Counted from the first letter of the stretch, positions 13,953 to 33,140 are shown. The stretch: DNA of 37,228 bases from Methanothrix sp. (GCA_026394555.1 JAPKXZ010000038.1:1-37228); one strand, 5' to 3'. Made by a program: numbers and translations. The notes: generated by a model not told the origin, from the sequence alone.

Positions 13953-13959
13953 TTTGAGA

Positions 13960-15700
13960 TCACCCATTTGTCTCGGTAGCTATTCCTCTTCCAATAAAGG
14001 AGGCGTTGCCTATTCCGCCCTGGCCGTTAAAACCATGACCGCCCGTGCCCACTGCAACTCCCAGGCCTACGCCTCCTAAACTGGAATTCTCAGCCAACCC
14101 GTCTCCCTGAGCCGTAGCTATGCCATCCCCACCATCGACAAATCCATCGCCGCCCGTGCCTATGCCCGCCCCGAAGGCAATGCCGCCTAAAGTTACATTC
14201 TTGGCCCTGCTCAGACCATAACCTTCGCCCAAACCGGTCCCGCCGTTGCCGCCTGTTCCTTTGCCCCCCGTACCGATACCCAGGCCCAAGGAATACCCAT
14301 TGAAGGACTGGCCGCTGCCCAGGACCATGCCGGAATTGGTATTGTCCGGGGTGACGCTCTTTGCAGAATTCATAATGCTGTCGGCATCCGGATCGGGATT
14401 GGGAGTGCTGCTCACCGAGCCGGTGTATAGGCCTTTAGCCTGGCTTATTCCCTGGCCAATGCCAGTGCCCCAGCCGCCATTAAGTCCTTCGCCGCCACTT
14501 CCCACCGCCACACCAAGGCCAATGCCGCCCACAGTAGACCCTTCCGTCTCACCGTTGCCGTATGATTTGGCGGTACCGTCGCCACCCTGGCCGCTGCCGC
14601 TTGAGCCGCCGATTGCCACCGCGACCGATGCGCCTATGCCGCCTACATTGGCATTCTTGGATGTGCCGTTGCCGTAAGCGGTAGCCTCACCAGAGCCACC
14701 CCGGCCGGTCAGGCCGTCTCCGCCCAAACCTACTGCCACACCAAGACCGATGCCGCCCACTTTAGCCGTATCTACCTGGCCGGTTCCCTTGGCTATGGCT
14801 ATTCCCTTTCCTCCTTCGAGGCTTCCTTCGCCGCCCGTGCCTACGCCAACTCCAATGCCCAGACCGCCAAAGGTGGTGTTCTTGGCATTAGCTAGACCGT
14901 AACCTTCTCCTTGACCGGTACCACCGTTGCCAGCCGTGCCCTTTCCGCCCGTTCCAACACCAATGCCTACTGCATAGCCATTATAGGAAGAGCCGCTTCC
15001 TGCGCTGCTATTAGCTATATCGTTCGCAGAGTTGGTATTGCCGGCATCAGTATTCTTGCCCTGGGAAAGAAGGCTGTCTGTATCAGGAAGATCCGTCTTC
15101 TCATTTCCGGTTGCATCCTCACCAGTGAATAATCCCTCCGCTTTACTATCTGCCTGGGCTATGCCGGTGCCGTTGCCGCCGCTCTTTCCTTCTCCGCCGC
15201 TTCCTACAGCCACAGCAACCCCGATTCCACCGACAAATGATCCCTCTGATGTGCCATTTGCATAAGCCAACGCTTTGGCATCTCCGCCTTTGCCGGTGTC
15301 GCTTGATCCTCCAACTGCAACGGCCACCGCGCCGCCCATGCCTCCACCGTTCTCCACATCCTTGGAAGTGCCATTGCCATAAGCTGTCGCGTCTGCCGAT
15401 CCACCATTGCCGGCTGTTCCGTGGCCACCTACCGCTACGGCAACGCCTGCTCCAATGCCGCCTACTTTTCCATTCTCGGCAATGCCCGTGCCCTCACCAT
15501 AGGCTACAGCAAAGCCTCCTTCCAGGCCATCGCCGCCCGTGCCCACACCAACACCTGCACCAATACCACCTACGGTACTGTTCTTGGTCTCAGCCTGGCC
15601 ATATCCCTTGCCTATTCCTCTGCCGCCTACTCCGTCACTGGCTTCTCCGCCAATGCCTACTCCTACGCCCACTGCAAAGCCGCTGTAGGAGTCTTTTGAA
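13960..15700 (-). repeat. C-terminal super-repeats of the giant protein
   Basis: Three copies of a roughly 220-240-residue unit begin near 15690, 14960 and 14300. Each starts like NGYAVGIGVGTGGKG, runs through GIGKGYG or GEGYGL, and holds several Gly-Gly-(I/L)-Gly-x-G-V-(A/G)-V-G segments with spacers like YGNGTSK. The first two end with a Ser/Asn/Asp-rich linker (for example TDSLLSQGKNTDAGNTNSAN). The third is cut short by the stop codon. Confidence 0.8.
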
Positions 15701-18700
15701 TCGTTACCTGTTTTCAGGCCTGGATTAATGTCGCCTCCACTATTGTCCGCAGTCGAATCCCTCATTTGGCTGGCGGAATTGCCAAAGCCAGTCGTGTCGG
15801 GCATTGACGGCGTATCACTATTGCCCGAATCTGCGCCTTTTCCTTCACCCTTTCCGATTCCTTTGCCTATGCCTATGCCGTCGCCGGCATCGCCGCCAAT
15901 GCCGCTATCTCCGGAAACGCTGCCGTAGGCATCTAGTCCACCCTTACCTTTGCTGCCGCCGTCTCCTCCCACGCCAATGCCAAAGCCCACGCCAATAGCT
16001 CCCACATCCAGCTCCTTTGAGGTGCCTTCACCTACTGCCGTGCCATTGGCTTTTCCACCATTCCCACCGTTGCCGCCGCTCCCGGCCAGGCCGTTATTCA
16101 TTGTGCCCAGAGCTGCTGCTCCGCCGTCCCCGCCATTGCCGCCGCTCCCGGCAATGCCGATGGCAATGCCTATGCCCATGCCGCCAAAGCTGCCTCCACC
16201 TTCCGCCTTTCCTTTGGCATAGACATCGGCAATGCCGTCTCCTCCATTGCCCGCGTTTCCTGCATTTCCGCCATTTCCGCCGCTGCCGGCGCCGGCAAGA
16301 AGGCCACTTCCGCCACTACCGGATCCTGCTCCTCCGCCATTGCCTGCGTCTCCTCCGTCTCCACCTACACTTACTGCAACTCCCACTCCCACGCTGCCAA
16401 TTGTGTAGTTTTCAAGAATTTTTTTGAGAGGTCCATCTTTGAACAGGCTGACCATGCCGTCAGAGTTGGCAGTGCCGTTTGCATATCCGCCGTTGCCGCC
16501 GTTGCCACCCATGCCGCCATTGCCACCCTTTGCTAGGCCGCCCGCGTCAATGCCGTTTCCGCCGACCGCTGCTCCACCCTGTCCCGCATTAGCGCCCTTG
16601 CCGCCATTTCCACCAATGCTCACGCCCGCCGAGCCGCTTCCCGACTGGGCACCGCTGCCATCCTTGCTGATATCCAGGCCTGCGCCAACGGTAAGGCCTC
16701 CCTTAGCGTTGCCTCCATCTCCTCCGTCTCCACCTGGGCCGGCATATCCACCGACGGCATCTCCGCCCTTGGCCAAGGCCACCGTCTCCAAATTGTTCAG
16801 GGCAGTGCTGTTGTCAAGCGATACGCTTCCCAGCAGACTGGTGACGCCGGAAATAACATCGCCTTTGCTGCCGCTTCCGCCATTGGCAGATCCACCATTG
16901 CCTGCCAGGCCGCCATCGCCTCCGTTTCCGGCGACGGTAACTCCAAGGCCCACTCCAACGCCTGTACCTTCCTCTTTGATCTTAACGGACGCTGCCGCTC
17001 CAATATTGGCGCCGCCATCAGCATCTCCGCCATCGCCTCCCCGACCGCCATTGCCGCCCTGGCCGCCAGCCGCATCTCCGCCAGTCGATTTTCCGCCCAA
17101 GGCATCATTTCCTGAGGCGGTGGAGTTGATGAGCTCAACATCACCCTGCGGCGCATAAATGCCGCTGAAGCTGGAGAGTGTCGTGCTTTCTCCACCCAGG
17201 CCATTTCCGCCATTGCCGCCGCTGCCTCCCGAGCCACCGGCACCGGCAACTACAACGCCAACGCCAATGCCTACAGCAGTCCCGTTAGATTTCATGTTCG
17301 CAGTCAGGCCAGCACCAACATTTGTGCCGCCCTTAACATACCCACCAGAGCCGCCGGCACCGCTATTGCCACCACTACCGCCCTGGCCGCTTCCGCCATT
17401 GGCGTCGCCACTGATCGCAGAATTATGGCTAACACTTGAGTTGATCAAATGCGCCTTTCCATAAACGCCAGCTATTCCCTGGCCACCGATTGCCTCGCCA
17501 CCTGTGCCTTTTCCGCCATTGCCGCCGGAGCCGCCATTGCCACCTTTTCCACTGACAGTAACATCAACTCCGCCGCCCACGCCTACGTTGCCGCTTATGG
17601 CGGCGCCAATGTTGGAGCCTCCGAATGCCGAGCCACCAGCACCACCGCTGCCGCCATTTCCGCCATTGCCGCCGATACCTTCTCCGGCTAGAGCTGAGCC
17701 GCCCTGGCCATAGTTCGATTCGACCATGCTGTAGGTCATGTCTACGGCCCCATTCCGGCTTACGGCCCCCGCAGCGCCTTCGCCGGCATAAGCATTTCCA
17801 GCAGTGCCGCTGCCGCCAATGCCGCCATTGCCGCCCTGGCTACCCGAGCTGGCCACATTGACGCCCACGCTAAGGCCAACTCCGGCTTTATCGCCTATTG
17901 CGCCACTGATGATAGTATCGCCATGGATGTCGCTGCCGCTGCCTCCTTCTCCACCCTTGCCTCCGGTTCCGCCCATTCCCTTGCCACCAGTAGCTCTGCC
18001 GCCCCAGGCAGAGTTAGAGGTGATATTGCTCCCGGACAGGATAATATCGCCATCACGACTGTAGGCTCCGCTAAGGCCATCCTGGCCAAGGCCATCTCCC
18101 GCCAGGCCATCCGCGCCCGAACCGCCTGCTCCGCCAAAGCCGCCACTGCCACCGGTCTTTATTCCAATGCCGACAGCCACACCAACTTTCTCTCCTGCAC
18201 CAACACCAACCCTGACGCCTCCGCGAAGGTCGCCCGCATCTCCACCGTCGCCTCCAGAGCCGCCATTGCCGCCCGTGGCAAAGCCTCCTATTCCGTTTCC
18301 GCCCCAGGCATTGTTCTGCATAAGAGAGCTGTTGATTAGGGCAACATTGCCGCTCTGGCTGTAAATGCCGCTTGCAGCACTATTACCTTCGCCCTTTCCG
18401 CCCGTGGCCAGACCGCTTGCCCCTCCGGCTCCGCCCGAGCCTCCACTGCCGGCAACGCTGACGCCTACGTTCGCGCCGACTCCTACTTTTCCACCCAGAC
18501 CGACGGAGACCACAATCTCGCCGGTCACGTTGCCGCCTTCTCCGCCTTCTCCGCCATTTCCACCTGCGCCGCCATATGCATGTCCGCCAATGCCGTCTCC
18601 ACCCGTGGCAGAGTTCAACTGGATGCTGCTGTTGTCTGCATTTATGCTGCCGCTGGATGTGTAAATTCCGGCGAAGGCTTGGCTGCCAATGCCGCTGCCA

Positions 18701-21700
18701 GCAATGGCGCTGCCGCCCTGGCCGCCCAAGTTGCCGTCTCCTCCTTTGCCTGCGGTATTGACGCTGATGTCAGCGCCCACACCCACGGTGCCGCCGCCGC
18801 CCACAGGAACGCTCACTCCACCTTCAACAGTGCCGCCCCGCCCGCCAAGGCCGCCAACGCCGCCTGCACCGGCATTAGCGGATCCGCCCTTGCCGGCTCC
18901 GCCCGTGGCAGAGTTCTTCTCGATGCTGCTGTTATCGACAGTAATACTTGCGCCCTGGCTGTAGAGGCCGGCAAAAGAGCTGTACTTGCCGCTTAGCAGG
19001 GAATTGCTTACCGTGCCGTTGCCTCCCAAGGCGTCGCCTCCGAGGCCGCCAAAGCCGCCATTGCCGCCGTCTCCAGCTATATTGATGCCGACATGGGCAC
19101 CAATGCCTGCTGTTCCACCGATTCCAGTAGCTACGGTAACGGCTCCCTTAACAATGCCGCCTTCTCCTCCTGAGCCTCCAAAGCCGCCCCGGCCACCGGC
19201 AGCATCTCCACCCACGCCCTGTCCGGCCTGAGCGGTATTCTCATTGATATTGTAATTCTCAAGCGCTAGATTGTCTCCCTCATAGACCAATCCGCTCGTG
19301 GCAGATCCTCCTTTTCCGGATCCACCCCGGCCTTCGCCTGCAGAGCCGCCGTTGCCGCCATTGCCTCCGTCTTTTGCTACGTTGAAACCGACGTCCGCGC
19401 CTACTCCTGCCGTTCCTCCAACACCGGCTGCAACTGAGATGCCGCCATCGACGAGGCCTGCCTTGCCGCCTGCACCACCCTGGCCGCCGTTGCCGCCAAT
19501 TCCGCTGCCGCCTCTACCCTCGCCGGCAATAGCGCTATTTCCATTCACAGAGCCATTGGCCAGCTTGAGGTTGGAGCCCTGGAACAGTATTCCGCTGGTT
19601 GCATGACCTGCTGTGCCGATGCCTCCCGTTCCATCGTTGGCGCTGCCACCATCGCCTCCGTTTCCGCCTGCTCCTGCTACATTGACGCCGATCTTGGCAC
19701 CTACACCAACATCTCCTATACCGGCGTTGACGCTAATTCCGCCATCCGAGCCGCCACCTTTGCCGCCCTCTCCGCCAACTCCGCCCGAGCCGCCCGTGCC
19801 GTTGCCGCCAATACCGGCCCCGCCCATGCCTTTGCTATCTGATGCAATAAAGCCTGAAAGAACCAGATTATCGCCGGCAACCAGGATATGAGATATGCCG
19901 TCTCCGCCCAGGCCGCTGCCGCCTTTGCCCTCTCCGCCCAGGCCGCCGTTGCCGCCGTTGCCGCCATCTCCTGCCGTATTGACGCTTATGCTGGCTCCTA
20001 CTCCGACCTCGCCCGCGCCCAAAGCAACGGTGATGCCTCCATTTGCGCTTCCGCCATCTCCTGCAGCACCACCGGCACCTCCAGCACCGCCTGTGCCGGC
20101 ACCACCAATTCCGGCGCCGCCTTTTGCCACATTTCCGAAGGCCGGGCTGCTCTGTAGCTCGTCATTGAGGTATGAGCCGCTGATTGCTTTGCCGCCGCTG
20201 CCTGATCCACCAATTCCGTCGCCGCCATTTCCACCGTTACCGCCGTCTTTTCCTGATCTGGCTACGGTTACGGCCACGTTCGCACCTACACCAACCTCGC
20301 CCATTCCAGCGGCAACGTTGATGCCTGCCTCAGCGCTGCCGCCGTTGCCGCCCTGGCCGCCACTGCCGCCATTGCCGCCCTGGCCTGCTCCGCCGATGCC
20401 GCTGCCTGCCATGTCTGTATCATTGTTCATTATGGTGCCAGTCTCTGTCAGGCTGCCGGTGTAGCCATAGACGCCTCCTTTTGCGTCTCCGCCTTCACCG
20501 ATGCCACCTGTACCAAAGCTGCCTGACGCTCCCTGTCCACCGTCAGCGGCGCTGCCTGCGGTATTGGCTGCGATATTTGCACCCACCCCCACAAGCCCGG
20601 CGCCTGCTGATGCCAGGACCCCGCCGATGGCGTCTCCTCCTTTGCCGCCATTGCCTCCGCTGCCGCCGTCGCCACCCGAGCCGCGGCCGCCGCTGCCCTG
20701 GCCGCCTACGGCACGATTCTCAGAAATGCGGACTTGGTTCATAGTTAGATCGTTGTGATCGATGTACGCCCCGCTGCCCAGGGCTTTTCCGCCAGTGCCC
20801 TGGCCCCCAAGCCCATTAGTGCCTGCGACTCCATTGCCTGCCGATCCGGCCGAGCCTGCGACTGCAATGCCAATTGACGCGCCTACCCCTACTTCGCCTG
20901 CGCCTGCCGATACCGTGACGCCGCCTTCGACGTCACCGCCGTTGCCGCCGGACCCGCCCGAGCCGCCATTGCCGCCCTTGCCACTGCCTCCGCTGCCCCA
21001 GCCGCCAGTAGCAATGTTCCTGGTGAGATTGACCTGGGTCAGATCCAGCAAGCCCTTGCTGTAAACACCTGCACCCAGAGCGTCACCTGCGCTGCCGGCA
21101 CTTCCATATCCGGTTCCTGTGGAGCCGCCGTGGCCACCTGACCCACCGTCTCCTCCTGTATAAACGCCAATATTTCCGCCAACTCCTACCAGTCCGGCTC
21201 CAAAGGCCACATCCACGCCGCCATGGCTGGTTCCGCCATTGCCGCCCTTGCCGCCCAGGCCGCCATTGCCGCCAAAGCCGCTGCCGCCCTGGCCATTGCC
21301 GCCCGACAGATAATTGCCAGTGATCTCAGATTCGGTGATGCTAACTTCCGACTGGCCATAGATGCCCCCGCCCAGAGCATCCCCTGCCGATCCTTCTCCA
21401 CCATATCCGCTGCCTGCATAGTTGCCCTGACCGCCTGAGCCGCCCTGACCGGCTACGCCTGCTCCGATGTCGGCGCCAACTCCTACAACTCCACCACCTA
21501 CAGCTACATTGACGCCAGCATCGACATTGCCTCCCGCACCGCCACTACCGCCATTTCCGGCGTTTCCGCCCAGCCCTGATGCGCCAATTGCACTTCCGCC
21601 TGCAGCAGAATTACCAATAACATTGGACTCTTGCAGCTCTATCCTGGCCAGTCCTTGGATACCTCCGCCAAGAGCATTTCCTGAGGTAGCCATTCCGCCA

Positions 21701-24700
21701 TGCCCGTTGCCCGCAGTGCCGCCATAGCCGCCCGAGCCGCCATTGCCGGCAACATTGACAACCACATTTGCCCCAACGCCAACCACTCCGCCGCCTACGG
21801 GTATATTGACGCCTCCCCGGGCATCGCCACCGCTGCCGCCGGAGCCGCTGTTTCCACCATTGCCGCCCTGGCCAGTGCCGGCAATTGCGTCCCCGCTTAC
21901 CACATTATTTCTTAAAATGCGCGACTGCTGCAACACAGCATCCAGTCGGCTGAAAATGCCGCCCGCAGAGGCATCTGCCGTCGTGGCATATCCGCCATAT
22001 CCATAGGCACCATGGCCGCCGTTTCCTGCCAAGCCGCCATCTCCTCCGGTGTTGGCACCTACCGTCGCACCAACGCCAACAACTCCCCCTCCCAACGCAA
22101 TATTGACGCCATCAATGCCGCTGCCGCCCAGGCCCCCGTTTCCGCCGTCTCCTCCGTTGCCGCCTGTGCCATTTCCTCCCAGAGCGCCTCCGCCCAGAAC
22201 ATTGTTGTCAGTAACATTGGACCTGATCAGAGAGATCGTAGATTGAGTAGATATGCCGCCTGCGGATGCTTTTCCACCGGATCCTTTCCCAGCGCTGCCG
22301 ATTTCGCCATTGCTTCCTGATCCGCCAGCGCCACCATCGCCACCCATCTTAAATCCGATTTGGGCGCCTACACCCACGACTCCTGCTCCTGCTGCGATAT
22401 CGACTCCGCCCAGTGTGCTTCCGCCAGAGCCGCCATTGCCGCCTGCGCCGCCGTTGCCGCCCCGGCCATTGCCGCCGGAGCCATAGCCCGATTGAGCAGA
22501 ATTGCTAGCGATGATAGAATCTACAATGCTCAGAACGTCGCCGCTATAGATGCCGCCTGCCTGTGCATCTCCACCTAAACCATCAGCACCCCGGCCCGCT
22601 CCGCCTTTGCCGCCGCTGCCGCCCCGGTTCCCTTCGCCGGCGTTAAGAACGCTCACGCCTATGCCTGTGCCGACTCCGCCAGCTCCTATGGAAACGCTAA
22701 CTCCGCCAGTGCTATTGCCACCGGCGCCACCTTGTCCCGCCGGGCCGCCTTCGCCGCCAGTACCAGAGCCGCCTGTTCCGTTGCCGGCTTTAACAATATT
22801 ATCCAGTACATTTGATGAATTCAGAGTTATCTGGCCACTGCCGTTGATGCCGCCGCCGATTGCCGAGCCGCCGAAGCCTTCTTTGCCATAACCGCTGCCT
22901 GCCGCGCCTCCATTGCCTCCCGCGCCGCCGTCTCCAGCCGTATTAACGCCCACATTTGCGCCGACGCCCACGGCTCCTGCGCCCACTGTTACATCTACAC
23001 CATTGCTGGCATTTCCGCCGCTGCCGCCTGCGCCGCCCGCGCCGCCATTGCCTCCCTGGCCGCTGCCGCCAAGGCCGTTTCCACCAATAACGGAATTTCT
23101 CGATACATCTGCCCGGAGCAGGCTGATGTCGGACAGGCCGGCGATTCCTCCTGATGAGGCTGAGCCGCCGGTTCCCTGGCCGGCAAGGCCCTGAGCGCCG
23201 CTGCCACCGGCATTGCCCTGGCCGCCATCGCCTCCTTCCAGGACTCCAACATTGGCGCCAACGCCAACCGCGCCTATTCCTGCGGCAACATTTACACCGC
23301 CAGTGGAGGCGCCGCCTGTTCCACCGTTACCACCCAGACCACCGGCTCCACCCCGACCGTTTCCGCCGGTACCTGAGCCTGCCCGGACGAGGTTCTCCAG
23401 TATATCGAAATCAGATAGCTGGAGGCTTGTTGTGCTATAGATGCCGCCGCCTGTGGCATCTCCGCCCAATCCTTCTCCGCCTTCCCCAGATGCGCCGGAC
23501 CCAGCCGATCCGCCGCTTCCGCCATTTCCTGCAGAATTAACACCGATTCTTACGCTTGCACCTACGGTACCAGCGCCTCCAGTCACCGTGACGGTCCCGT
23601 TTGCAATTCCACCATCGCCGCTCTGGCCGCCCGAACCGCCGGAGCCGCCCTGGCCGGACCCACCTACGCCATCTCCGCCCAGCGCCGCATTATGGATGAT
23701 AACCGAGTTTTCAGCGCTCCCTAACAGGCCTTCGTTATAGATGCCGGCTCCCTTTGACTGGCCGCCCTTGCCGGCTCCACCGGTCGCAGACGCGCCCATT
23801 CCGCCTGCGCCGCCGTCGCCTCCGGAATTTGCCTCATTGATGCCAACATCGATTGCAGCACCGACAATGCCTGCAGCGCCGATGGTTACGTCAACGCTTC
23901 CTGTGCTACTGCCTCCCTGGCCGCCGTTGCCGCCATTGCCGCCGGAGCCTCCGACGGCGTCTCCACCAATTCCTGCTCCCGCCAGAGCAGAATTGCCGGA
24001 TACGCTGCTATTCTGCAGGGATATGGTCCCCTTATTGAATATTCCTCCACCAATGGCAGATCCACCCGTGCCGTTTCCGGCGCTGACCGATCCGCCATCG
24101 CCTCCGGCACCACCTTGACCGCCCGATCCTGCATCATTTTTGCTTACAGAGACCGCAACACTGGCGACGACTGCGAAGCTGTCACCGCTGGTAAAGCCAC
24201 CTTCAACATCGCCGCCATCTCCGCCCGTGCCACCCTGGCCGCCTTTGCCGGCAAGAGCGCTTCCGCCCTTTCCTAGGCCGCCGATTACAGAATTATCGAT
24301 GACGCGGCTGTCCTGCAAAGTGAGATCGGCATCGTTGTATATTCCGCCGCCTACTGCATCGCCTCCGGTAGCAGATCGTCCTACGGCATTGCCGCCGTTG
24401 CCGCCGGCGCCACCTGTTCCGCCGTCACCAGCATCTCTTGCTGCGGCTGCGAAGGACCCGCTGAATATCAGGCTGCCAGCTCCGCTGAAAGCATCACATG
24501 CTGCGCTTCCACCCTTACCGCCGGCACCTCCGGAACCTGCATCTCCGCCCTGTCCGCTTCCACCTACACTGTCGCCACCCATGACCCGGTTGCCGGAGAT
24601 GGTTACACCGCTCATCGTTACCGGTGCCAGATAGTAAGATAAGAACGACACATTAGAGACTGCCCCGTAAGAGCCAAATCCACCTATACCGTCTCCGCCG

Positions 24701-27700
24701 CTTCCGCCAATGCCACCGTTGCCGCCTGCGCCACCCTGACCAAGAGCTGCCGCGCCATCGATGCTAATCAAACCTATAGATCCAACCGTGACATCACTGG
24801 AGCCGCGACCGCCGTTGCCGCCTGCGCCACCCTGGCCGCCTGAGCCGCCCGTGCCATTGCCGCCGATACCTGAACCCGTACTGGCAACATTGCCCAGAAT
24901 CCGGCTATCGTCGATCGTAAGGTTGGTGGAGCTGGACAGGCTATCTTCCGAAGCATTTCCGCCTCGGCCGTTTCCTCCCTGACCAATGCCCCCGGCACCG
25001 CCAGCACCGCCCTGGCCGCCCGCGCCGCCTTTAGCTTCACCGACACCAACTGCAAATCCGGTGATGCTTTTCATATCAACCTTAGAGTACGCTTCGCCAC
25101 CCTGACCGCCTGCGCCGCCCTCGCCGGCCGCGCCGCCCCGGCCCGAGCCACCGATGCCGCTGCCACTCTCCGCAGAGTTCTCAGTCACTAGGGTATCCTG
25201 AACTGACAAATTACCACTGGAATACACGCCTGCGAAAGAGGCGCCGCCCTCGCCGTTTCCTCCATATCCATAGCCACCGGCACCTCCCAGGCCACCAATT
25301 CCGCCTGCGCCGCCCCGACCTTCGCCATAGCTGAAGCCGAAGAGGCTCAAAAAGCCATATTCGGAAATGCCCGCACCATATCCGCCTGCGCCGCCCTGGC
25401 CGCCAGCTCCGCCGTTGCCGCCAATACCATCTCCGCCTGCTCCTTCTCCCCCAATTGCAGAGTTATGAACGATCACGGAGTCATCTATGACCGTCTTGCC
25501 CAGAGAATAAGCGCCGCCGCCAATGGCATATCCACCAATGCCCTTGCCGCCATAGCCATTCGCACCCTGGCCGCCTGCGCCGCCGGCACCACCGTCGCCG
25601 CCTACGCCAATGCCGATTCCGACATTAACAATGCCAAGCACAGTGCCATCGGCAATAGCGTCCTCTCCTTGTAGAGCACTGTAGCCGTTGCTTCCCTGGC
25701 CGCCCACACCCTGGCCGCCCCGGCCGGCGCCGCCTCTGGCAGTATTGTTGGATACTTCCGTGCGGACTAGGGTCAGATCGCTTGCTGCATAGGCTCCGCC
25801 GCCCAGTGCCTGGCCACCGGTTCCGTTGCCGCCCCGGCCCTCTGCGCCGAGTACGCCATCTTTGCCGTTACGGCCGTCTCTACCTTTCTTGTAGACATCC
25901 TGGGTAGTAAGACTCCAGCCTACATCACCAGCCACACCATTTTCGCCTGCATTGACGCCATCGCCGCCATAACCGTTGCCGCCCCGGCCAACGCCACCTT
26001 CTGCCAGATTACCGGTTATGCTGCTATCAGTAAGAGTGAGTTTGCCTTCTGTATAAATGGCTCCGCCTTTGGCCTGGCCGCCCTGACCATAGCCGCCTAT
26101 GCCTGCTACACCCTGGCCGCCCTGACCGCCAGCGCCACCGTCGCCTCCGCCGTTGCCTACCGGCAGGAGGCTGGCACCACCATTGCCGCCATAGCCTCCG
26201 GCTCCGCCCTGACCGCTATTTCCACTGTTACTATTTCCTCCAATGCCGCCGCCGCCCCGCACAATGTTGTCAGCAACACGGAAATGACTCAGATCCAGAT
26301 CACCGTTATTGTAAATGCCGCCACCCAGGGCATCTCCGCCCACGCTCTGACCGGCATAACCAGTGCCTCCCAGGCCGCCCTGACCGCCCTGACCGCCCTG
26401 GCCACCATTTCCTCCCTTAATTATTCCAAATGTAGCGCCATCGCCGCCTCTGCCACCACTGCCGCCATTGCCGCCATCGCCACCAATGCCGCTTCCACCA
26501 ATTCCTTGGCCGCCTTCTGCGACATTGCCTGATAGTGTGCCGTTGGAAGGTGCAATGCTTCCTATAACATACAGGCCGCCACCGTAGCTCTTTCCGCCGG
26601 TGCCGTTGCCGCCATAGCCGTCTCCGCCATTGCCGCCATTGCCGCCATTTCCTCCCGGCCCGCCGTCTGCGCCGACCACGGCCGCCGAGCCGCCTTTACC
26701 GCCATCATCGCCATCTTGGGCTCCAGAGCCATCTATGCCCTTTCCTTCCCCACCCTGGCCGGTTCCACCCCGGGCCAGGTTATTGACGATGCTGCTATCG
26801 GCAAGAACCATAGTGCCATCACTGTAGACGCCGCCTCCCAGAGCATCGCCACCATAGCCTTCGCCACCATAGCCCTCGCCGCCCGGTGCGCCATTCAGAC
26901 CATTTGGACCCTTATTACCCTTCGAGCCCACAAAGAGCTTGCCGATCCATTGCAGCAAGCCCCATCCATCATTTCCTTGCTCACCGTGCGTTCCCTGAAT
27001 GCCAGCCCAACCACCGGTGCCATAGCCGCCGGTGCCCGTTCCTCCTACGGCCATGTTGCCGGATACCACGCTGGAATCAAGGTTAAGAGTCCCTTTGCTA
27101 TAGATGGCCCCGCCTGAGACGTCTCCGCCATAACCTTTGCCGCTGCTGCCGCTGCCGCCATCTCCGGCATCTCCTCCATCAGTTATGCCGGCTCCATCGC
27201 CGCCCCAGATGCCGCCGCCGCCCTTGCCGCCATCGCCGCCATGGCCGCCATCGCTGCCATTGCCGCCATAGCCGTTTTTGCCAAATCCATTGCCTGCTAT
27301 TGCTGCATTATCCTTTATACTGGAATAAGACAGGCCAGCATTGCCTTCACTGTAAATGCCGCCACCGGTTGAATTGCCGCCGAAGCCATCGCCGCCCTGG
27401 CCCAATCCACCTTGGCTGCCATGACCACCCAGGCCGCCCCAGCCACCGTCTTTGCCAACAATGGCTCCCCCGCCGTCGCCGCCTCTGCCACCAGCTCCAC
27501 CGGTTCCGCCCTTGGCGCCATAACCTATGCCGCCGGTACCGTTGCCGGCTCGAGCCAAATTGCTGGAAATATCGCTGCTTATCGCAGTGAGATCGCCCTT
27601 GCTATAGATGCCTCCGCCAATCGCTTCGCCGCCGTAACCATTGCCGCCGGTGCCTGAACCACCTGCACCACCCGCACCACCATCTCCGCCTTTGCCTCCT

Positions 27701-30540
27701 TTTCCAGCAGAAAATACGCTGTCTCCGCCTTCTCCGCCATTGCCTCCATAGCCTCCATTGCCGCCGACGGCGCCCCGGCCCATTCCGCCAATTCCGTTGC
27801 CGCCCAAAGCAAGATTATTGGTGACCTGGCTTTTTATCATGGCCACAATGCCTTCACTGTAAATGCCGCCGCCGTAAGCACTGCCGCCAGATCCATTGCC
27901 ACCGATGCCGTTTCCTCCAGTATCGCCGGCATTTCCGGCGCCACCCGACTTGCCGTTGCCTCCATGGAAGAAGCCAAATCCACCATTGCTTCCACTGCCA
28001 CCGTTGCCGCCGTTACCGCCCACCCCGCCCATACCGTTGCCGCCGGTGCCGTCGCCGCCCTGGGCCAGATTCATGTAAATAGCGGACTCGATCAAAGTCA
28101 ACCGGGAGTTGCTGTATATGCCGCCGCCAAAAGCATCTCCTCCAATGGCATCAAGCCCGGTTGCGGATGTGCCCTCAGTCGATGATCCAGAGGCATTACC
28201 ACCATCATTCCCGCTGCCGGCATCGGATGCAGTGAGTATTATTGGCAGATTGTTCGCACTGTTCGTGAAGTTGTAGAAATCCGCAGCCCAGTACGATGAG
28301 CCTGAGCTTGCCGAATAGCCCGCATCATAGGCGGCCTGATTGAAATCATTGCTTCCCCAATCGATCAAAGTTCCGTCTGAATTGTTGAAGAGAATACTAT
28401 TGGGGTTAGCCTTCTTATCAGACCGTCCGGCATTGTACCGGTCTATCTGATTCTGGACAAAGCCCATCTGATAACTTCGGGAATAAGTTTTATCATGATT
28501 GAAGTCTCCTGGGCTGTAACTATACCCAAATGGCCCGACGCTAAGGCTGAAGGTGACCTGATTAGAGGGATTATCTGAAGAATTACCAGAATTGGCATCG
28601 TTTCCGTCCTGGCCCGTCATATTTAATCCCACGGCATCGCCGCCGATGGCCTTATTGTTGAATATATTAGTTGCGATGAGCGTCAGGTTATTTTCATTAT
28701 AAATGCCGCCGCCATATGCGCTCCCGCCCTTGTTAGCATTGATCTTATCCAGACCTCTGGCAGTGCTTCCCGTGACATTTACGCCGATTAGGGTAAGATC
28801 GGCCTTGTTATAAATTGCGCCACCTCTTGCATCGCCGAAAAAGTCCGTAGGAGCTGTTCCATTCCATATCGTCATATAGGAAATGGTCACAACCTTTGAG
28901 GGATCGATCAAACCCACCTCAAAGACTCTGCCCTTATTCTCGCCATCAACAATGGTTTTGTCCGTGCCGTTGCCGATGATATGCAATGATTTATCGACCT
29001 TTACGTTCTCACGATACTCTCCCTCGAACACTCTGATGGTATCGAATCTCGTTGGATTTTCAGTCGTCGGATGGTCGAATGCCTCATCAACCGAGGACTG
29101 GATGCTCTCAGTTCCCACATCATCGTCGAGATAGAAGATCGTCCAGCGATCCGAATTGGCATGCAATGCATTGGTGGCCGCCCAGAGATGAGAGTCCACA
29201 CCAACGCTGTTGTAATTCAAATCAGAGTTAGAGGTCAGGCCATCACTGTAGGATCTCACCTCGCTGTTAATCATGCCCCTGGCCCGGATGTACTGATTCG
29301 TCTGTGTACCGGTGCTGTTCGAGTCCGCGGTCTGCAGTCCCTGCAATGTTGCAGGCTTGACATTATTTATGGAAACTGTGGTGTTGATGCGACTCTGTTC
29401 ACCTGGCCGCCACGCACTCACATTGGCACGGATGAGATCGGCACGGGCATAGAAATTATGATCAATTGTGGCATTGCTCATCGCCCTGGCCAAAATCTCG
29501 TTTGAGAACATGCCGTTAGTTATTGTCAGGCTTGAATCTGCCTTGTGAGAGTTTGCATCCTCGGAATGAGCGCCGTCCGTTCCCCACAGGACTTTTTCAG
29601 CCTTCAAGTTTTGGTATATTTCCGCTCCTTCATCGACATACAGATCCATTACGCCATCAAATTGGCCGCGGTCCATTATCAAGGCAGCAGCAACAGATGA
29701 CTTATTGCCGAGGCTATCCTGAACCTGACCGCTCTTTTTAGCGGTTAATACTTCGGTGGCGTTGAATTTGTGATAATCGGACACCCGACCATCCTCAACA
29801 TGCACCTGCAGAGTATTGTTGAAGTGGCCCTGGTCCATTGTAGCCGAAACGCTGGTGTTGGCCCGGTCACCCTCCTTGCTTAGACCGAGAGTGAGAGCTT
29901 GGCCGGAAGTTGCCAGCGTGGCACTGGTCCTCTGCCAGATAGCAGCGCTGCCGTCCGCCTCCAGTCCCATGATGGTATCAAACAGACCGCCGTTCATCTT
30001 CGTCTGCACGGTCGTCTGGGCCATGTTGCCGCTCTCGTCCTTCGCCCGTGCACCAGACGTGCCGCTAAGAGCGGATGAGGCATCCGCCTTGTGATAGATG
30101 CTGACATTCTCGTCTTTCGAGAGGACGCCCATGGTGTTGTTGAAGCGGCCCGAGTTCATGGTGGCAGTGACGCTGGTGTTGGCCCGATCCCCCTCGCTGC
30201 TGAGAGCCCGGGTGAGAGCCGAGCCGGACAACGCCACTGTGGCATTGGTCCTCTGCCAGATAGCAGCGCTGCCGTCTGCCTCCAGTCCCATGACGGTATC
30301 AAACAGACCGCCGTTCATCTTCGTCTGCACGGCCGTCTGGGCCAGGTTGCCGCTCTCGTCCTCGGCCCGAGCACCGGACGTGCCGCTAAGAGCGGATGAG
30401 GCATCCGCCTTGTGATAAATGCTGACATTCTCGTCTTTCGAGAGGACGCCCATGGTATTGTTGAAGCGGCCCGAGTTCATGGTGGCAGTGACGCTGGTGT
30501 TGGCCCGATCGCCCTGCCTCCAGTCCCATGACGGTATCAA
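13960..30540 (-). CDS. Giant glycine-rich beta-helix repeat surface protein (main open frame)
   Basis: An uninterrupted frame of 5,526 codons, the bulk of a secreted giant. Its first nine codons are read out of frame after an 83-bp deletion; the true reading starts near 30513. Order: 53-residue repeats (to about 29500), a pectin-lyase-like start (DTIRVFEGEYRENVKVDKSL near 29040), then about 42 segments of the type GGGIYSxGxLTLxxSxVxxN. These segments alternate with Gly-Gly-X tracts, and from about 25400 downward with V/G-rich inserts such as GVGANVGVNTAGDGG. Long repeats at the C-terminus end at NASFIGRGIATETNG, with no membrane anchor or sorting signal. It is nearly free of Cys. The beta-helix segments resemble polymorphic outer membrane/NosD repeats, and the Gly tracts resemble PE_PGRS or polyglycine-II helices. 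A role in sheath, adhesion or aggregation is inferred. An internal start is unlikely, so the present gene may be silent. Confidence 0.85.
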   Translation of the reverse strand: MIPSWDWRQGDRANTSVTATMNSGRFNNTMGVLSKDENVSIYHKADASSALSGTSGARAEDESGNLAQTAVQTKMNGGLFDTVMGLEADGSAAIWQRTNATVALSGSALTRALSSEGDRANTSVTATMNSGRFNNTMGVLSKDENVSIYHKADASSALSGTSGARAKDESGNMAQTTVQTKMNGGLFDTIMGLEADGSAAIWQRTSATLATSGQALTLGLSKEGDRANTSVSATMDQGHFNNTLQVHVEDGRVSDYHKFNATEVLTAKKSGQVQDSLGNKSSVAAALIMDRGQFDGVMDLYVDEGAEIYQNLKAEKVLWGTDGAHSEDANSHKADSSLTITNGMFSNEILARAMSNATIDHNFYARADLIRANVSAWRPGEQSRINTTVSINNVKPATLQGLQTADSNSTGTQTNQYIRARGMINSEVRSYSDGLTSNSDLNYNSVGVDSHLWAATNALHANSDRWTIFYLDDDVGTESIQSSVDEAFDHPTTENPTRFDTIRVFEGEYRENVKVDKSLHIIGNGTDKTIVDGENKGRVFEVGLIDPSKVVTISYMTIWNGTAPTDFFGDARGGAIYNKADLTLIGVNVTGSTARGLDKINANKGGSAYGGGIYNENNLTLIATNIFNNKAIGGDAVGLNMTGQDGNDANSGNSSDNPSNQVTFSLSVGPFGYSYSPGDFNHDKTYSRSYQMGFVQNQIDRYNAGRSDKKANPNSILFNNSDGTLIDWGSNDFNQAAYDAGYSASSGSSYWAADFYNFTNSANNLPIILTASDAGSGNDGGNASGSSTEGTSATGLDAIGGDAFGGGIYSNSRLTLIESAIYMNLAQGGDGTGGNGMGGVGGNGGNGGSGSNGGFGFFHGGNGKSGGAGNAGDTGGNGIGGNGSGGSAYGGGIYSEGIVAMIKSQVTNNLALGGNGIGGMGRGAVGGNGGYGGNGGEGGDSVFSAGKGGKGGDGGAGGAGGSGTGGNGYGGEAIGGGIYSKGDLTAISSDISSNLARAGNGTGGIGYGAKGGTGGAGGRGGDGGGAIVGKDGGWGGLGGHGSQGGLGQGGDGFGGNSTGGGIYSEGNAGLSYSSIKDNAAIAGNGFGKNGYGGNGSDGGHGGDGGKGGGGIWGGDGAGITDGGDAGDGGSGSSGKGYGGDVSGGAIYSKGTLNLDSSVVSGNMAVGGTGTGGYGTGGWAGIQGTHGEQGNDGWGLLQWIGKLFVGSKGNKGPNGLNGAPGGEGYGGEGYGGDALGGGVYSDGTMVLADSSIVNNLARGGTGQGGEGKGIDGSGAQDGDDGGKGGSAAVVGADGGPGGNGGNGGNGGDGYGGNGTGGKSYGGGLYVIGSIAPSNGTLSGNVAEGGQGIGGSGIGGDGGNGGSGGRGGDGATFGIIKGGNGGQGGQGGQGGLGGTGYAGQSVGGDALGGGIYNNGDLDLSHFRVADNIVRGGGGIGGNSNSGNSGQGGAGGYGGNGGASLLPVGNGGGDGGAGGQGGQGVAGIGGYGQGGQAKGGAIYTEGKLTLTDSSITGNLAEGGVGRGGNGYGGDGVNAGENGVAGDVGWSLTTQDVYKKGRDGRNGKDGVLGAEGRGGNGTGGQALGGGAYAASDLTLVRTEVSNNTARGGAGRGGQGVGGQGSNGYSALQGEDAIADGTVLGIVNVGIGIGVGGDGGAGGAGGQGANGYGGKGIGGYAIGGGAYSLGKTVIDDSVIVHNSAIGGEGAGGDGIGGNGGAGGQGGAGGYGAGISEYGFLSLFGFSYGEGRGGAGGIGGLGGAGGYGYGGNGEGGASFAGVYSSGNLSVQDTLVTENSAESGSGIGGSGRGGAAGEGGAGGQGGEAYSKVDMKSITGFAVGVGEAKGGAGGQGGAGGAGGIGQGGNGRGGNASEDSLSSSTNLTIDDSRILGNVASTGSGIGGNGTGGSGGQGGAGGNGGRGSSDVTVGSIGLISIDGAAALGQGGAGGNGGIGGSGGDGIGGFGSYGAVSNVSFLSYYLAPVTMSGVTISGNRVMGGDSVGGSGQGGDAGSGGAGGKGGSAACDAFSGAGSLIFSGSFAAAARDAGDGGTGGAGGNGGNAVGRSATGGDAVGGGIYNDADLTLQDSRVIDNSVIGGLGKGGSALAGKGGQGGTGGDGGDVEGGFTSGDSFAVVASVAVSVSKNDAGSGGQGGAGGDGGSVSAGNGTGGSAIGGGIFNKGTISLQNSSVSGNSALAGAGIGGDAVGGSGGNGGNGGQGGSSTGSVDVTIGAAGIVGAAIDVGINEANSGGDGGAGGMGASATGGAGKGGQSKGAGIYNEGLLGSAENSVIIHNAALGGDGVGGSGQGGSGGSGGQSGDGGIANGTVTVTGGAGTVGASVRIGVNSAGNGGSGGSAGSGASGEGGEGLGGDATGGGIYSTTSLQLSDFDILENLVRAGSGTGGNGRGGAGGLGGNGGTGGASTGGVNVAAGIGAVGVGANVGVLEGGDGGQGNAGGSGAQGLAGQGTGGSASSGGIAGLSDISLLRADVSRNSVIGGNGLGGSGQGGNGGAGGAGGSGGNASNGVDVTVGAGAVGVGANVGVNTAGDGGAGGNGGAAGSGYGKEGFGGSAIGGGINGSGQITLNSSNVLDNIVKAGNGTGGSGTGGEGGPAGQGGAGGNSTGGVSVSIGAGGVGTGIGVSVLNAGEGNRGGSGGKGGAGRGADGLGGDAQAGGIYSGDVLSIVDSIIASNSAQSGYGSGGNGRGGNGGAGGNGGSGGSTLGGVDIAAGAGVVGVGAQIGFKMGGDGGAGGSGSNGEIGSAGKGSGGKASAGGISTQSTISLIRSNVTDNNVLGGGALGGNGTGGNGGDGGNGGLGGSGIDGVNIALGGGVVGVGATVGANTGGDGGLAGNGGHGAYGYGGYATTADASAGGIFSRLDAVLQQSRILRNNVVSGDAIAGTGQGGNGGNSGSGGSGGDARGGVNIPVGGGVVGVGANVVVNVAGNGGSGGYGGTAGNGHGGMATSGNALGGGIQGLARIELQESNVIGNSAAGGSAIGASGLGGNAGNGGSGGAGGNVDAGVNVAVGGGVVGVGADIGAGVAGQGGSGGQGNYAGSGYGGEGSAGDALGGGIYGQSEVSITESEITGNYLSGGNGQGGSGFGGNGGLGGKGGNGGTSHGGVDVAFGAGLVGVGGNIGVYTGGDGGSGGHGGSTGTGYGSAGSAGDALGAGVYSKGLLDLTQVNLTRNIATGGWGSGGSGKGGNGGSGGSGGNGGDVEGGVTVSAGAGEVGVGASIGIAVAGSAGSAGNGVAGTNGLGGQGTGGKALGSGAYIDHNDLTMNQVRISENRAVGGQGSGGRGSGGDGGSGGNGGKGGDAIGGVLASAGAGLVGVGANIAANTAGSAADGGQGASGSFGTGGIGEGGDAKGGVYGYTGSLTETGTIMNNDTDMAGSGIGGAGQGGNGGSGGQGGNGGSAEAGINVAAGMGEVGVGANVAVTVARSGKDGGNGGNGGDGIGGSGSGGKAISGSYLNDELQSSPAFGNVAKGGAGIGGAGTGGAGGAGGAAGDGGSANGGITVALGAGEVGVGASISVNTAGDGGNGGNGGLGGEGKGGSGLGGDGISHILVAGDNLVLSGFIASDSKGMGGAGIGGNGTGGSGGVGGEGGKGGGSDGGISVNAGIGDVGVGAKIGVNVAGAGGNGGDGGSANDGTGGIGTAGHATSGILFQGSNLKLANGSVNGNSAIAGEGRGGSGIGGNGGQGGAGGKAGLVDGGISVAAGVGGTAGVGADVGFNVAKDGGNGGNGGSAGEGRGGSGKGGSATSGLVYEGDNLALENYNINENTAQAGQGVGGDAAGGRGGFGGSGGEGGIVKGAVTVATGIGGTAGIGAHVGINIAGDGGNGGFGGLGGDALGGNGTVSNSLLSGKYSSFAGLYSQGASITVDNSSIEKNSATGGAGKGGSANAGAGGVGGLGGRGGTVEGGVSVPVGGGGTVGVGADISVNTAGKGGDGNLGGQGGSAIAGSGIGSQAFAGIYTSSGSINADNSSIQLNSATGGDGIGGHAYGGAGGNGGEGGEGGNVTGEIVVSVGLGGKVGVGANVGVSVAGSGGSGGAGGASGLATGGKGEGNSAASGIYSQSGNVALINSSLMQNNAWGGNGIGGFATGGNGGSGGDGGDAGDLRGGVRVGVGAGEKVGVAVGIGIKTGGSGGFGGAGGSGADGLAGDGLGQDGLSGAYSRDGDIILSGSNITSNSAWGGRATGGKGMGGTGGKGGEGGSGSDIHGDTIISGAIGDKAGVGLSVGVNVASSGSQGGNGGIGGSGTAGNAYAGEGAAGAVSRNGAVDMTYSMVESNYGQGGSALAGEGIGGNGGNGGSGGAGGSAFGGSNIGAAISGNVGVGGGVDVTVSGKGGNGGSGGNGGKGTGGEAIGGQGIAGVYGKAHLINSSVSHNSAISGDANGGSGQGGSGGNSGAGGSGGYVKGGTNVGAGLTANMKSNGTAVGIGVGVVVAGAGGSGGSGGNGGNGLGGESTTLSSFSGIYAPQGDVELINSTASGNDALGGKSTGGDAAGGQGGNGGRGGDGGDADGGANIGAAASVKIKEEGTGVGVGLGVTVAGNGGDGGLAGNGGSANGGSGSKGDVISGVTSLLGSVSLDNSTALNNLETVALAKGGDAVGGYAGPGGDGGDGGNAKGGLTVGAGLDISKDGSGAQSGSGSAGVSIGGNGGKGANAGQGGAAVGGNGIDAGGLAKGGNGGMGGNGGNGGYANGTANSDGMVSLFKDGPLKKILENYTIGSVGVGVAVSVGGDGGDAGNGGGAGSGSGGSGLLAGAGSGGNGGNAGNAGNGGDGIADVYAKGKAEGGGSFGGMGIGIAIGIAGSGGNGGDGGAAALGTMNNGLAGSGGNGGNGGKANGTAVGEGTSKELDVGAIGVGFGIGVGGDGGSKGKGGLDAYGSVSGDSGIGGDAGDGIGIGKGIGKGEGKGADSGNSDTPSMPDTTGFGNSASQMRDSTADNSGGDINPGLKTGNDSKDSYSGFAVGVGVGIGGEASDGVGGRGIGKGYGQAETKNSTVGGIGAGVGVGTGGDGLEGGFAVAYGEGTGIAENGKVGGIGAGVAVAVGGHGTAGNGGSADATAYGNGTSKDVENGGGMGGAVAVAVGGSSDTGKGGDAKALAYANGTSEGSFVGGIGVAVAVGSGGEGKSGGNGTGIAQADSKAEGLFTGEDATGNEKTDLPDTDSLLSQGKNTDAGNTNSANDIANSSAGSGSSYNGYAVGIGVGTGGKGTAGNGGTGQGEGYGLANAKNTTFGGLGIGVGVGTGGEGSLEGGKGIAIAKGTGQVDTAKVGGIGLGVAVGLGGDGLTGRGGSGEATAYGNGTSKNANVGGIGASVAVAIGGSSGSGQGGDGTAKSYGNGETEGSTVGGIGLGVAVGSGGEGLNGGWGTGIGQGISQAKGLYTGSVSSTPNPDPDADSIMNSAKSVTPDNTNSGMVLGSGQSFNGYSLGLGIGTGGKGTGGNGGTGLGEGYGLSRAKNVTLGGIAFGAGIGTGGDGFVDGGDGIATAQGDGLAENSSLGGVGLGVAVGTGGHGFNGQGGIGNASFIGRGIATETNG
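16800..28840 (-). repeat. About 42 beta-helix plus Gly-Gly-X repeats of the giant protein
   Basis: Each unit has a beta-helix lead (AIGGGIYxxGxLxLxxSxVxxNxAxGG) and a Gly-rich tract (GGxGxGGxGGxGGxGG). I count about 42 leads. The first dozen units carry short or plain Gly tracts. Units from about 25400 to 17000 also carry an 18-25-residue hydrophobic insert rich in Val, Gly and Ala, of the form VxVGAGxVGVGAxVGVNxAG. Later leads lose the GGGIY core (for example AFAGIYTSSG, ATSGLVYEGD), so repeats drift toward the C-terminus. Confidence 0.85.
28230..28565 (-). other. Non-repetitive aromatic-rich island inside the giant protein
   Basis: Between the second and third beta-helix leads about 110 residues break the repeat. 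The sequence is rich in Tyr, Phe, Asn, Asp and Trp (VGPFGYSYSPGDFNHDKTYS, QNQIDRYNAG, IDWGSNDFNQAAYDAGYS, SSYWAADFYNFTNSAN). It is unlike the Gly-rich parts and could be a separate loop or small binding domain protruding from the helix. No family is recognised. Confidence 0.6.
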
Positions 30541-30737
30541 ACAGACCGCCGTTCATCTTCGTCTGCACGGCCGTCTGGGCCAGGTTGCCGCTCTCGTCCT
30601 CGGCCAGAGCACCAGACGTGCCGCTAAGAGCGGATGAGGCATCCGCCTTGTGATAGATGCTTACATTTTCCTTCGAGAGGACGCCCATGGTGTTGTTGAA
30701 GCGGCCCGAGTTCATGGTGGCAGTGACGCTGGTGTTG
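29851..30737 (-). repeat. Near-identical 321-bp tandem repeats
   Basis: The marker GCTGGTGTTG occurs at 29851, 30172, 30493 and 30728, giving spacings of 321, 321 and 235. The 321-bp unit codes 107 residues, made of two related halves (GDRANTSVTATMNSGRFNNT and LAQTAVQTKMNGGLFDTVMG). The 235-bp unit lacks 83 bases at 30515/30516 and three bases that remove one Asp codon near 30668. The near-identity at base level marks recent duplication and makes the stretch prone to recombination and misassembly. Confidence 0.9.
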
Positions 30738-31855
30738 GCCCGATCGCCCTCGCGATTGACGGCTCGGGTGAGAGCCAAGCCGGTTAATGCCTCTGTGGCA
30801 TTGGTCTTTTGCATGGCAAGAGCGCCTTTTCCATCGACCTTTGCAGCGAGATCAGAGGTAAAATTGCCATGATCCATTGAGGCTCTGGCATATGTCTTGG
30901 ATTTATTGCCGTTAAACTCCAGGGCAAGAGTTCCTGATGTTCCCAGAAGCGTGTTTGTGGCGCTAGAAAGCTGATAAGAAGCTGCACTATCGCTTGACTT
31001 GTTTACAAGTGCCCTCGAATTGCTGCTGAAATTGCCCAGATCCATCCTGGTATTGGTGTATGTGCGTGCCAGGTATCTATCATGGACCAGTGCATACGCA
31101 TATGAAGTCGCGGATAACGCTCGACCGGCATCTGCCTGATGCCAGATATCGAGACTATTATTGGCGACTGCAATCTGCCTTGAATTAAAGGTGCCATTGG
31201 ATAGGTCAACCAAAACTTTGCTATAGACCTTATCTCCTAATGCATTTTTTGCGTAAGATGATGATGATGATGCGCCCTGTGCGTCCCACACTTTAGAATT
31301 CTCATCTGCCACAGCCAGTTTATCTGCCCAGGCATTCTGTTCGGTGGTCATCTTTCCATCTGTCAATTCCACCAATACGCCTGCCTTATTTCCAGTGTAG
31401 CTGCTCGACGAAGAGCAGGCAATTGCCGCCAGGGCAGATAAGTTCGAGCTTTGCGAAGCCATGGCCATGATGTTATCCGGCGGGCTTGACACCCTTGCAA
31501 TTTGAGCTGTGGTCAGCTTGCCATCGTAAATCTCCACAAGGGTCTCTGCCTTGCTGCCCAAAGAATCAATTGCCTTTGATCCTACAATCGCTTTTCGGGC
31601 ATCCATGTCGGAATTAATTCCGACTGCCATGCCTCCATCAACATTAAGAAACTGATCCATATGAAGAGAACCGTATGAGAGCATGCCGTATTGCCTAACG
31701 GATTCAGAACCCCTACATGCACCAAGACAGAATTTTACAAGCTCGGCATTTGAGAAGGAGGCACTCTGGCTCACGCTCAAGGTATTGGGGGATAATGCTG
31801 CGCAACTTATCACCGCATTATTTGAGGCATTTTTAGAGAATAGAATAGCCACCAC
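30386..31855 (-). CDS. N-terminal repeat part of giant protein (second frame)
   Basis: This frame continues the giant protein upstream of the 83-bp deletion at 30515/30516. Bases 30386-30515 are an out-of-frame tail. It codes roughly seven repeats of 50-65 residues of the form ATxMDxGxFxSxxxAxxxxSxxxxxQxxxAxxALxGTSG (for example TYTNTRMDLGNFSSNSRALV, ARASMDHGNFTSDLAAKV). The same repeat begins the main open frame. The start shown is a GTG with no ribosome binding site or signal peptide, so it is not a true start. The real start is the fragment upstream, out of step by one base near 31840. Confidence 0.75.
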   Translation of the reverse strand: MVAILFSKNASNNAVISCAALSPNTLSVSQSASFSNAELVKFCLGACRGSESVRQYGMLSYGSLHMDQFLNVDGGMAVGINSDMDARKAIVGSKAIDSLGSKAETLVEIYDGKLTTAQIARVSSPPDNIMAMASQSSNLSALAAIACSSSSSYTGNKAGVLVELTDGKMTTEQNAWADKLAVADENSKVWDAQGASSSSSYAKNALGDKVYSKVLVDLSNGTFNSRQIAVANNSLDIWHQADAGRALSATSYAYALVHDRYLARTYTNTRMDLGNFSSNSRALVNKSSDSAASYQLSSATNTLLGTSGTLALEFNGNKSKTYARASMDHGNFTSDLAAKVDGKGALAMQKTNATEALTGLALTRAVNREGDRANTSVTATMNSGRFNNTMGVLSKENVSIYHKADASSALSGTSGALAEDESGNLAQTAVQTKMNGGLFDTVMGLEAGRSGQHQRHCHHELGPLQQYHGRPLERRECQHLSQGGCLIRS

Positions 31856-32120
31856 TTCCCTGGTATTTTTGCATCATACTTATGCTGCCGGGTCCCGAAA
31901 CCGTCCTTGAGCTGCTGATTGAGGCGGGAGAAAAGCCACCCGTCCCACTTTCATGAACGGAAACGCTATCGCTGACAATGTAGTAATCAGAAATTCCTAC
32001 GCTTCCGCTGCTATCAGAAACGGAGAAGCCCACGCCAATGGCAAAACTTGTAGGAATTATCGAAAGCTGTAGTATTAAAATTATAATAACACATTTATTT
32101 AAATTCCATCCGGGCAGCAT
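31833..32120 (-). CDS. Signal-peptide fragment of giant protein (first frame)
   Basis: This frame of 95 residues starts MLPGWNLNKCVIIILILQLS and continues IIPTSFA, a clear signal peptide with likely cleavage after SFA. A Ser/Gly/Val-rich region follows (IGVGFSVSDSSGSVGISDYY). It ends at a TAA just after KYQGSGGYSIL. Removing one base in the CTCTAAAAA stretch near 31835 would run it straight into KNASNNAVISCAALSPNT of the next fragment, so the two were one gene. ATG 32120 is preferred over ATG 32144 because a TATA box sits 26 bases upstream of it. Confidence 0.72.
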   Translation of the reverse strand: MLPGWNLNKCVIIILILQLSIIPTSFAIGVGFSVSDSSGSVGISDYYIVSDSVSVHESGTGGFSPASISSSRTVSGPGSISMMQKYQGSGGYSIL

Positions 32121-32143
32121 AATAGTATGTGTATTTCGCCACA

Positions 32144-32149
32144 TTTAAA
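32144..32149 (-). promoter_or_regulatory. TATA box of the giant gene
   Basis: On the minus strand TTTAAA sits 26 bases before the ATG at 32120, predicting a leaderless transcript. Further upstream, around 32300-32325, lies another AT-rich TATA-like stretch that could give a longer leader. Confidence 0.5.
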
Positions 32150-32348: not shown

Positions 32349-33140
32349 TTACTTTCCGCCTTTAGCTGCGATCGCCTTATCAAAAGCTCTTACAGCATCT
32401 TTGTATCTTCCCGCCGCGTTAAGGGTCAATCCAAGGTTATTCCACGCCTCCGCGAATTTAGGGTCCGCAATAGTTGCATTGTCAAAAGCATTAATTGCTT
32501 CATTTGATCTGTTAAGATTCATCAGGGCAATTCCCTTATAATTCCAGGCTTGAGCGAATTTGGGATCTATCTTCACAGCGCGATCATAAGCCGGAATTGA
32601 TTCATTGTATTTGCCCATATTAAAGAGCGCAATTCCCTTATTGCTCCATGCCGAAGCTAGACCCGGATCCTGCTTGATCGCCTCATCGAAAGCCTTTATA
32701 GCCTGGCTATAGTCGCCAAGATTGAGATAAGCAAACCCCTTATTATCCCAGGCTTTCACATACGTACTATCTATTTTTGTAGCGTTATCGAAAGCGTTAA
32801 TAGCTTTCTCATATTCGCCCATGCTGGTCAGAGCCAGACCTTTATTATTCCAGGCCCAGCTAAACTTGGAATCAATATTCAATGCCTGATCAAATGCCTG
32901 TAATGACTCATTATATTTCCCCAACCTGAGGCGATCAAGACCAATATTATTCCAGGCATGAAGGGTACTTGAGTTTGCGCGAGTTGCATTCTCATAAGCG
33001 CCTATCGCTTGCTGGTAATCTCCCAGGTTATCTAGAGCTATGCCTTTATTGACCCAGTAGCCAGCCATATCTTCTTGACCGAAAGAAGAAAGGCTTAATA
33101 AAAAAAAGATGAACATGAAATAGACGATTTTAGTTCTCAT
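32349..33140 (-). CDS. Secreted TPR-repeat protein
   Basis: A 263-residue protein with a signal peptide (MRTKIVYFMFIFFLLSLSSF, then GQ) followed by about seven 34-residue tetratricopeptide repeats filling the rest. Each has the form AWxNKGIALxxxGxYxxAIxAFDxAxxxDP (for example NKGIALDNLGDYQQAIGAYE). TPRs are helical protein-binding scaffolds, and the outside location implies an extracellular partner. The ribosome binding site GGGAGG lies seven bases before the ATG. The gene lies between pycB and the giant gene on the same strand, with its own leader and a poly-U end, so it is probably a separate unit. A link with the giant protein is possible by neighbourhood only. Confidence 0.9.
   Translation of the reverse strand: MRTKIVYFMFIFFLLSLSSFGQEDMAGYWVNKGIALDNLGDYQQAIGAYENATRANSSTLHAWNNIGLDRLRLGKYNESLQAFDQALNIDSKFSWAWNNKGLALTSMGEYEKAINAFDNATKIDSTYVKAWDNKGFAYLNLGDYSQAIKAFDEAIKQDPGLASAWSNKGIALFNMGKYNESIPAYDRAVKIDPKFAQAWNYKGIALMNLNRSNEAINAFDNATIADPKFAEAWNNLGLTLNAAGRYKDAVRAFDKAIAAKGGK

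Follow-up and report, generated by a model that had tools for sequence, protein, structure and literature searches.

Two frame-breaking lesions in a giant secreted-protein gene

The window analysed here is a stretch of 37,228 nucleotides from Methanothrix sp. (GCA_026394555.1, JAPKXZ010000038.1:1-37228), which carries on its minus strand a giant gene for a secreted, glycine-rich repeat protein. As assembled, the frame of this gene is broken near its 5' end by two lesions, one of 14 bp (lesion 1) and one of 83 bp (lesion 2). We give about even chances to the explanation that two small deletions, independent of each other, recently inactivated the gene in the assembled strain. Under this explanation, the start would be followed after approximately 92 codons by a loss of 14 bp, the opening unit of a 321-bp tandem array would have lost 83 bp, and the sequence as written would encode only a secreted fragment of 95 to 103 amino acids. 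The placement of the gene on the minus strand, lesion 1, and the finding that the missing 83-bp piece is not a repeat unit were all absent from a preliminary description of this DNA.

The draft genome to which the window belongs, as contig 14, is of the Methanothrix type (2.53 Mb, 75 contigs, 96.5% complete; labeled G000); its source is an uncultured methane-making archaeon very probably belonging to Methanothrix/Methanotrichaceae. The comparison covered one genome per species. The orthologues of the giant gene were compared in six Methanotrichaceae genomes labeled G019, G010, G031, G034, G035, and G036, of which G019 (JAQVZT010000258.1) and G010 (JAPKYC010000235.1) are metagenome-assembled genomes of Methanothrix sp.

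Read as if unbroken, the giant gene spans 13960..32144 on the minus strand (about 6,050 codons), with a probable start at ATG 32120 and a further ATG at 32144, at either of which the signal peptide would begin. The signal peptide is followed by an N-terminal domain, divergent half-repeats, the array of 321-bp repeats, a beta-rich region, and then glycine-rich repeats that extend over thousands of codons. The protein showed no family match in Pfam or NCBIfam. In the assembled sequence, the gene is split over three frames. The first open reading frame (ORF 1, 31833..32144, minus strand) carries the signal peptide and the conserved N-terminal domain and ends at TAA 31833 after 103 amino acids, or 95 when counted from ATG 32120. 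ORF 2 (30386..31855, minus strand, frame 0, 489 amino acids) covers the half-repeats and runs into the first 107-codon unit; its true coding frame runs from about 31838 to 30516, and its 3' end runs on in the wrong frame. ORF 3 (13960..30540, minus strand) consists of 5526 open codons, begins across the 83-bp junction with TTG 30540 as its first codon, and has no signal peptide.

The 83-bp lesion lies inside one repeat unit

The array is a tandem repeat of 321 bp, or 107 codons, on the minus strand, with the unit translation GDRANTSVTATMNSGRFNNTMGVLSKDENVSIYHKADASSALSGTSGARAEDESGNLAQTAVQTKMNGGLFDTVMGLEADGSAAIWQRTNATVALSGSALTRALSSE. Start-to-start distances of the marker were 321, 321, and 235, which reproduces the drop from 321 to 235 bases in the preliminary description. 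Unit u2 (29868..30189, minus strand) measures 321 bp to the next start, and u1 (30190..30510, minus strand) is an intact 321-bp unit by unit alignment. The start of the shortened first unit, u0 (30516..30745, minus strand, starting at 30745), is 235 bp from that of the next. Alignment of u0 to its sister units bore out the two losses described before, namely, 83 bp missing at the junction 30515..30516 (minus strand) and 3 bp missing near 30668-30670, the latter removing one codon in frame (KDENV to KENV). The stretch that u0 lacks begins at LEA and extends to the following GDRAN, and the reading frame is lost with it; the change of frame proposed earlier is thus visible in ORF 2, which ends in the wrong frame, and in ORF 3, which begins across the junction. 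Apart from the lost codon, u0 differs from u1 by six synonymous changes and one nonsynonymous change. The repeat units are near identical across hundreds of bases (exact runs of at most 92 bp), and a related species has the same 107-codon period; the short spacing is therefore not due to chance.

The 83-bp gap can be aligned equally well in three positions, meaning that the deletion ends share 2 bp (the microhomology AG). The missing piece is neither a repeat unit nor a multiple of 321. Repeat collapse or exchange would take out 321-bp units as wholes and leave the frame unchanged; the event is therefore either a short illegitimate deletion that took place in the cell or an assembly misjoin. 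The suggestion that recombination between identical repeats was the cause could not be upheld, since the 83 bp lie inside one unit and their ends share only 2 bp. If real, the event would be an ordinary short deletion with 2-bp microhomology, which could have arisen by replication slippage or end-joining.

Lesion 1 breaks the frame upstream

Lesion 1 (31836..31855, minus strand) lies in single-copy sequence, where the only short repeat is a direct repeat of two CTATT copies. After the stop of ORF 1, coding continues in another frame, and 14 bp present in G019 are missing at about 31844/31845. The orthologue in G010, which is approximately 85% identical here, also keeps part of the stretch absent from G000, and the G010 contig then ends. 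As this second frame break lies upstream, the gene would stay out of frame even if the 83 bp were put back. The earlier statement that the 83-bp gap puts the giant gene out of frame thus needs amendment: the gap does break the frame, but the frame was already broken by lesion 1. Both lesions show what is expected of a pseudogene inactivated by small deletions, that is, a frame-breaking change against intact homologous sequence (sister units for the 83 bp and G019 for the 14 bp).

Orthologues in related genomes

The N-terminal domain of the giant protein has a match in 30 of the 50 genomes of the family Methanotrichaceae, and it is common to the window and all of the named orthologues. These proteins form a family of giant secreted glycine-rich repeat proteins of 2,400 to about 6,050 codons in Methanotrichaceae, with a shared N-terminal domain. 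A single ORF beginning with the signal peptide was found in G031 (3031 amino acids), G034 (2377 amino acids), and G019 (899 amino acids to the contig end), so the region broken in G000 is open in these three; in G036 it is open in most of the readable part. The orthologue in G019 is in frame at both lesion sites and shares the 107-codon units with the window, with four unit starts spaced exactly 107 codons apart.

Other orthologues are interrupted in ways of their own. The G035 orthologue changes frame at about codon 110 (G035:C15, ~5260-5310) through a small alteration that differs from those in the window and lies 1.5 kb from the contig end; given this break, loss of the giant gene may recur. 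In G036, an in-frame TAA is found in the giant gene (G036:C64, position 6745), 97 bp from the contig end, and it is doubtful because it lies in A-rich sequence that looks unreliable. The G010 orthologue (G010:C295, 9631-9915) is approximately 85% identical to the window over its N-terminal domain and some 60 bp of upstream sequence, and it is cut by the contig end. Recurrent frame breaks in G010, G069, and G006 were considered and rejected, as their shortened matches are contig ends, and a stop in G063 was discarded because it lies upstream of the start codon. Of two contig scans for relatives, the first gave no match and the second matched only G010 and G019.

Selection and age of the loss

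The ratio of nonsynonymous to synonymous substitution rates (dN/dS) between G000 and G019 was 0.20 before lesion 1 and 0.16 after it; both values are rough, as synonymous sites are near saturation. These ratios indicate that coding on both sides of lesion 1 was under purifying selection. Downstream of the 83-bp junction, no further stops or shifts occur in 5526 codons. With 2.7% of substitutions creating stops and an assumed indel/substitution ratio of 0.03 to 0.1, neutral divergence since inactivation would be at most about 0.2 to 0.4%. Because 5526 codons show no decay and the dN/dS values are 0.16 to 0.20, the loss is either very recent or not real. The leading explanation, at about even chances, infers the former, together with the presence of both lesions in living cells.

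An assembly artefact as the alternative

Should the loss not be real, the organism would carry an undamaged gene, and a misjoin, a gap-fill, or a chimeric or mixed-strain consensus in the draft metagenome assembly of this repeat-rich gene would have produced one lesion or both. We regard this as a serious possibility, although one falling short of even chances. Several observations weigh against a real loss and speak for such an error. Both lesions lie in the first 9% of the gene, within a stretch of 1.6 kb, and the remaining 16.6 kb, in a gene that was under purifying selection, is clean. Random decay would give such clustering with a probability of about 0.008; with the baseline of this genome, the figure is about 0.0015. 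In addition, the contig ends inside the giant gene in four of the seven closest orthologues (G019, G035, G036, and G010); in G010, the contig end falls inside the lesion-1 site itself. These contig ends point to an assembly trouble spot. The genome itself is a draft in 75 contigs.

Published experience also bears on this question. In a survey of frame transitions with GeneTack, unclustered breaks confirmed by BLASTp were expected to be mostly sequencing errors (PMC3711429), an expectation that would apply to isolated breaks such as these. Like the cases in that survey, the present break is supported by homologues, its site is not conserved in relatives, and it occurs in one lineage; it differs in that two lesions lie in one very long gene, adjoining and inside a tandem array. 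The glycine-rich PE_PGRS/PPE genes of Mycobacterium tuberculosis are a second analogue, being repeat surface genes with intragenic structural variation in which misassembly and reference errors are reported to be frequent (PMC12817950). Structural differences between references in these pe/ppe genes are partly errors; some variants break the frame, and most of the true ones are in frame (PMC12817950). In contrast, variation in the archaeal array goes by units of 107 codons, and the present lesion does not correspond to such a unit; no sequence relation is claimed. By analogy, the pe/ppe experience would be compatible with a real loss and with an artefact alike.

The structure of the junctions argues in the other direction. 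The longest exact repeat in the giant gene as assembled is 92 bp, with none of at least 99 bp, and lesion 1 is in single-copy sequence. Elsewhere in the window and across 20 further contigs of this genome (362 kb), no sequence shares more than about 10 to 11 bp with the 83-bp junction. A junction without a longer shared k-mer would be hard for a k-mer assembler to create without supporting reads. The junctions share 2 bp with their own flanks and 10 to 11 bp elsewhere, which simple repeat collapse cannot give; collapse of the tandem repeat by the assembler was therefore rejected, as was a generically indel-rich assembly, since comparison with G004 gave at most three candidate frame breaks, none of them convincing, in 28,662 aligned codons. 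The assembly collapse raised in the preliminary description hence does not stand as a plain repeat collapse, given the size of the deletion and its 2-bp ends, but a misjoin, gap-fill, or chimeric read may still account for the gap.

Reversible switching, internal start, and recoding

The preliminary description had proposed an on/off or length switch for the surface protein. In such a system, the array would mutate often, the population would be a mixture of cells that have the 83 bp and cells that lack it, and neighboring units would restore the frame by unequal exchange or gene conversion. The near-identical units (up to 92 bp exact) that flank lesion 2 could permit restoration by exchange in principle, the protein is of a secreted surface type, and in another relative, G035, the reading frame is likewise broken within the N-terminal region. 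However, a switch requires that its forward event be reversible and that control rest on one point, and neither holds. The forward event was not an exchange of whole units between repeats but a loss within one unit, and natural changes by 321-bp units stay in frame. Lesion 1 is unrelated and lies upstream, so that one switch, or a cure of the 83 bp, would not turn the gene on. Short tandem repeats of the kind used in slipped-strand phase variation (PMC3711429) were found at neither lesion: the 83-bp junction has its 2-bp microhomology only, and lesion 1 has just two CTATT copies. The assembly contains one copy of the gene and no second allele. We therefore consider a reversible switch unlikely.

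A related idea is that the N-terminal 1.6 kb is a hot spot of frame breakage and repair, in which neighboring units serve as templates and the protein is made in part of the population only; this appears very unlikely. In principle, the damaged unit could be removed by unequal exchange with its neighbor, giving the repeats a role in repair, but no observation supports such a role, and lesion 1 would remain.

Two further explanations take the gene to be functional as written. The 5526-codon ORF could be a separate intact gene with an internal start downstream of the deletion, in keeping with its uninterrupted length. Before the deletion, its first start, TTG 30540, belonged to a different frame, it lacks a signal peptide, and the orthologues in G031, G034, and G019 read as one ORF from the signal peptide, which makes a separate gene highly improbable. 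We give almost no credence to programmed recoding, in which ribosomes would change frame at both sites to make the full protein: there is coding constraint on either side of lesion 1, but two separate shifts would be required, the 83-bp junction takes away sequence and adds no slippery site, and the conserved shift site of a programmed frameshift (PMC3711429) is absent, G019 being in frame at both sites and the G035 break being a different change.

Neighboring genes and other features

A gene for a TPR-repeat secreted protein (32349..33140, minus strand) lies upstream of the giant gene, as it does upstream of the G019 and G035 orthologues; in G031 a TPR gene is nearby. Directly downstream lies a gene for a 310-amino-acid secreted protein of unassigned family (13035..13967, minus strand), and in G035 and G031 the giant gene is likewise followed by a relative of it. 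Family members thus often adjoin a TPR gene and a secreted protein of roughly 310 amino acids. In G010, a gene for an FtsX-like permease stands upstream in place of the TPR gene.

AlphaFold2 predicted three repeat units as all-beta with a mean predicted local distance difference test score (pLDDT) of 63; one of the five models was above 35, which is too weak for a fold search. A search of the window against Rfam gave no match. An IS605-type TnpB gene (36044-37182, plus strand) is in two frames, split at a run of six G (~36913-36920), and is probably a decayed insertion sequence or the product of a homopolymer error.

Meaning of the lesions

If the lesions are artefacts, they would warn against interpreting a broken frame as a switch when the gene is rich in repeats and the genome is a draft from a metagenome. 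If they are real, a secreted protein of roughly 6,000 residues in an abundant methanogen group would be dispensable and lost at the level of the strain. Neither Pfam nor NCBIfam describes the protein family, which may merit study.

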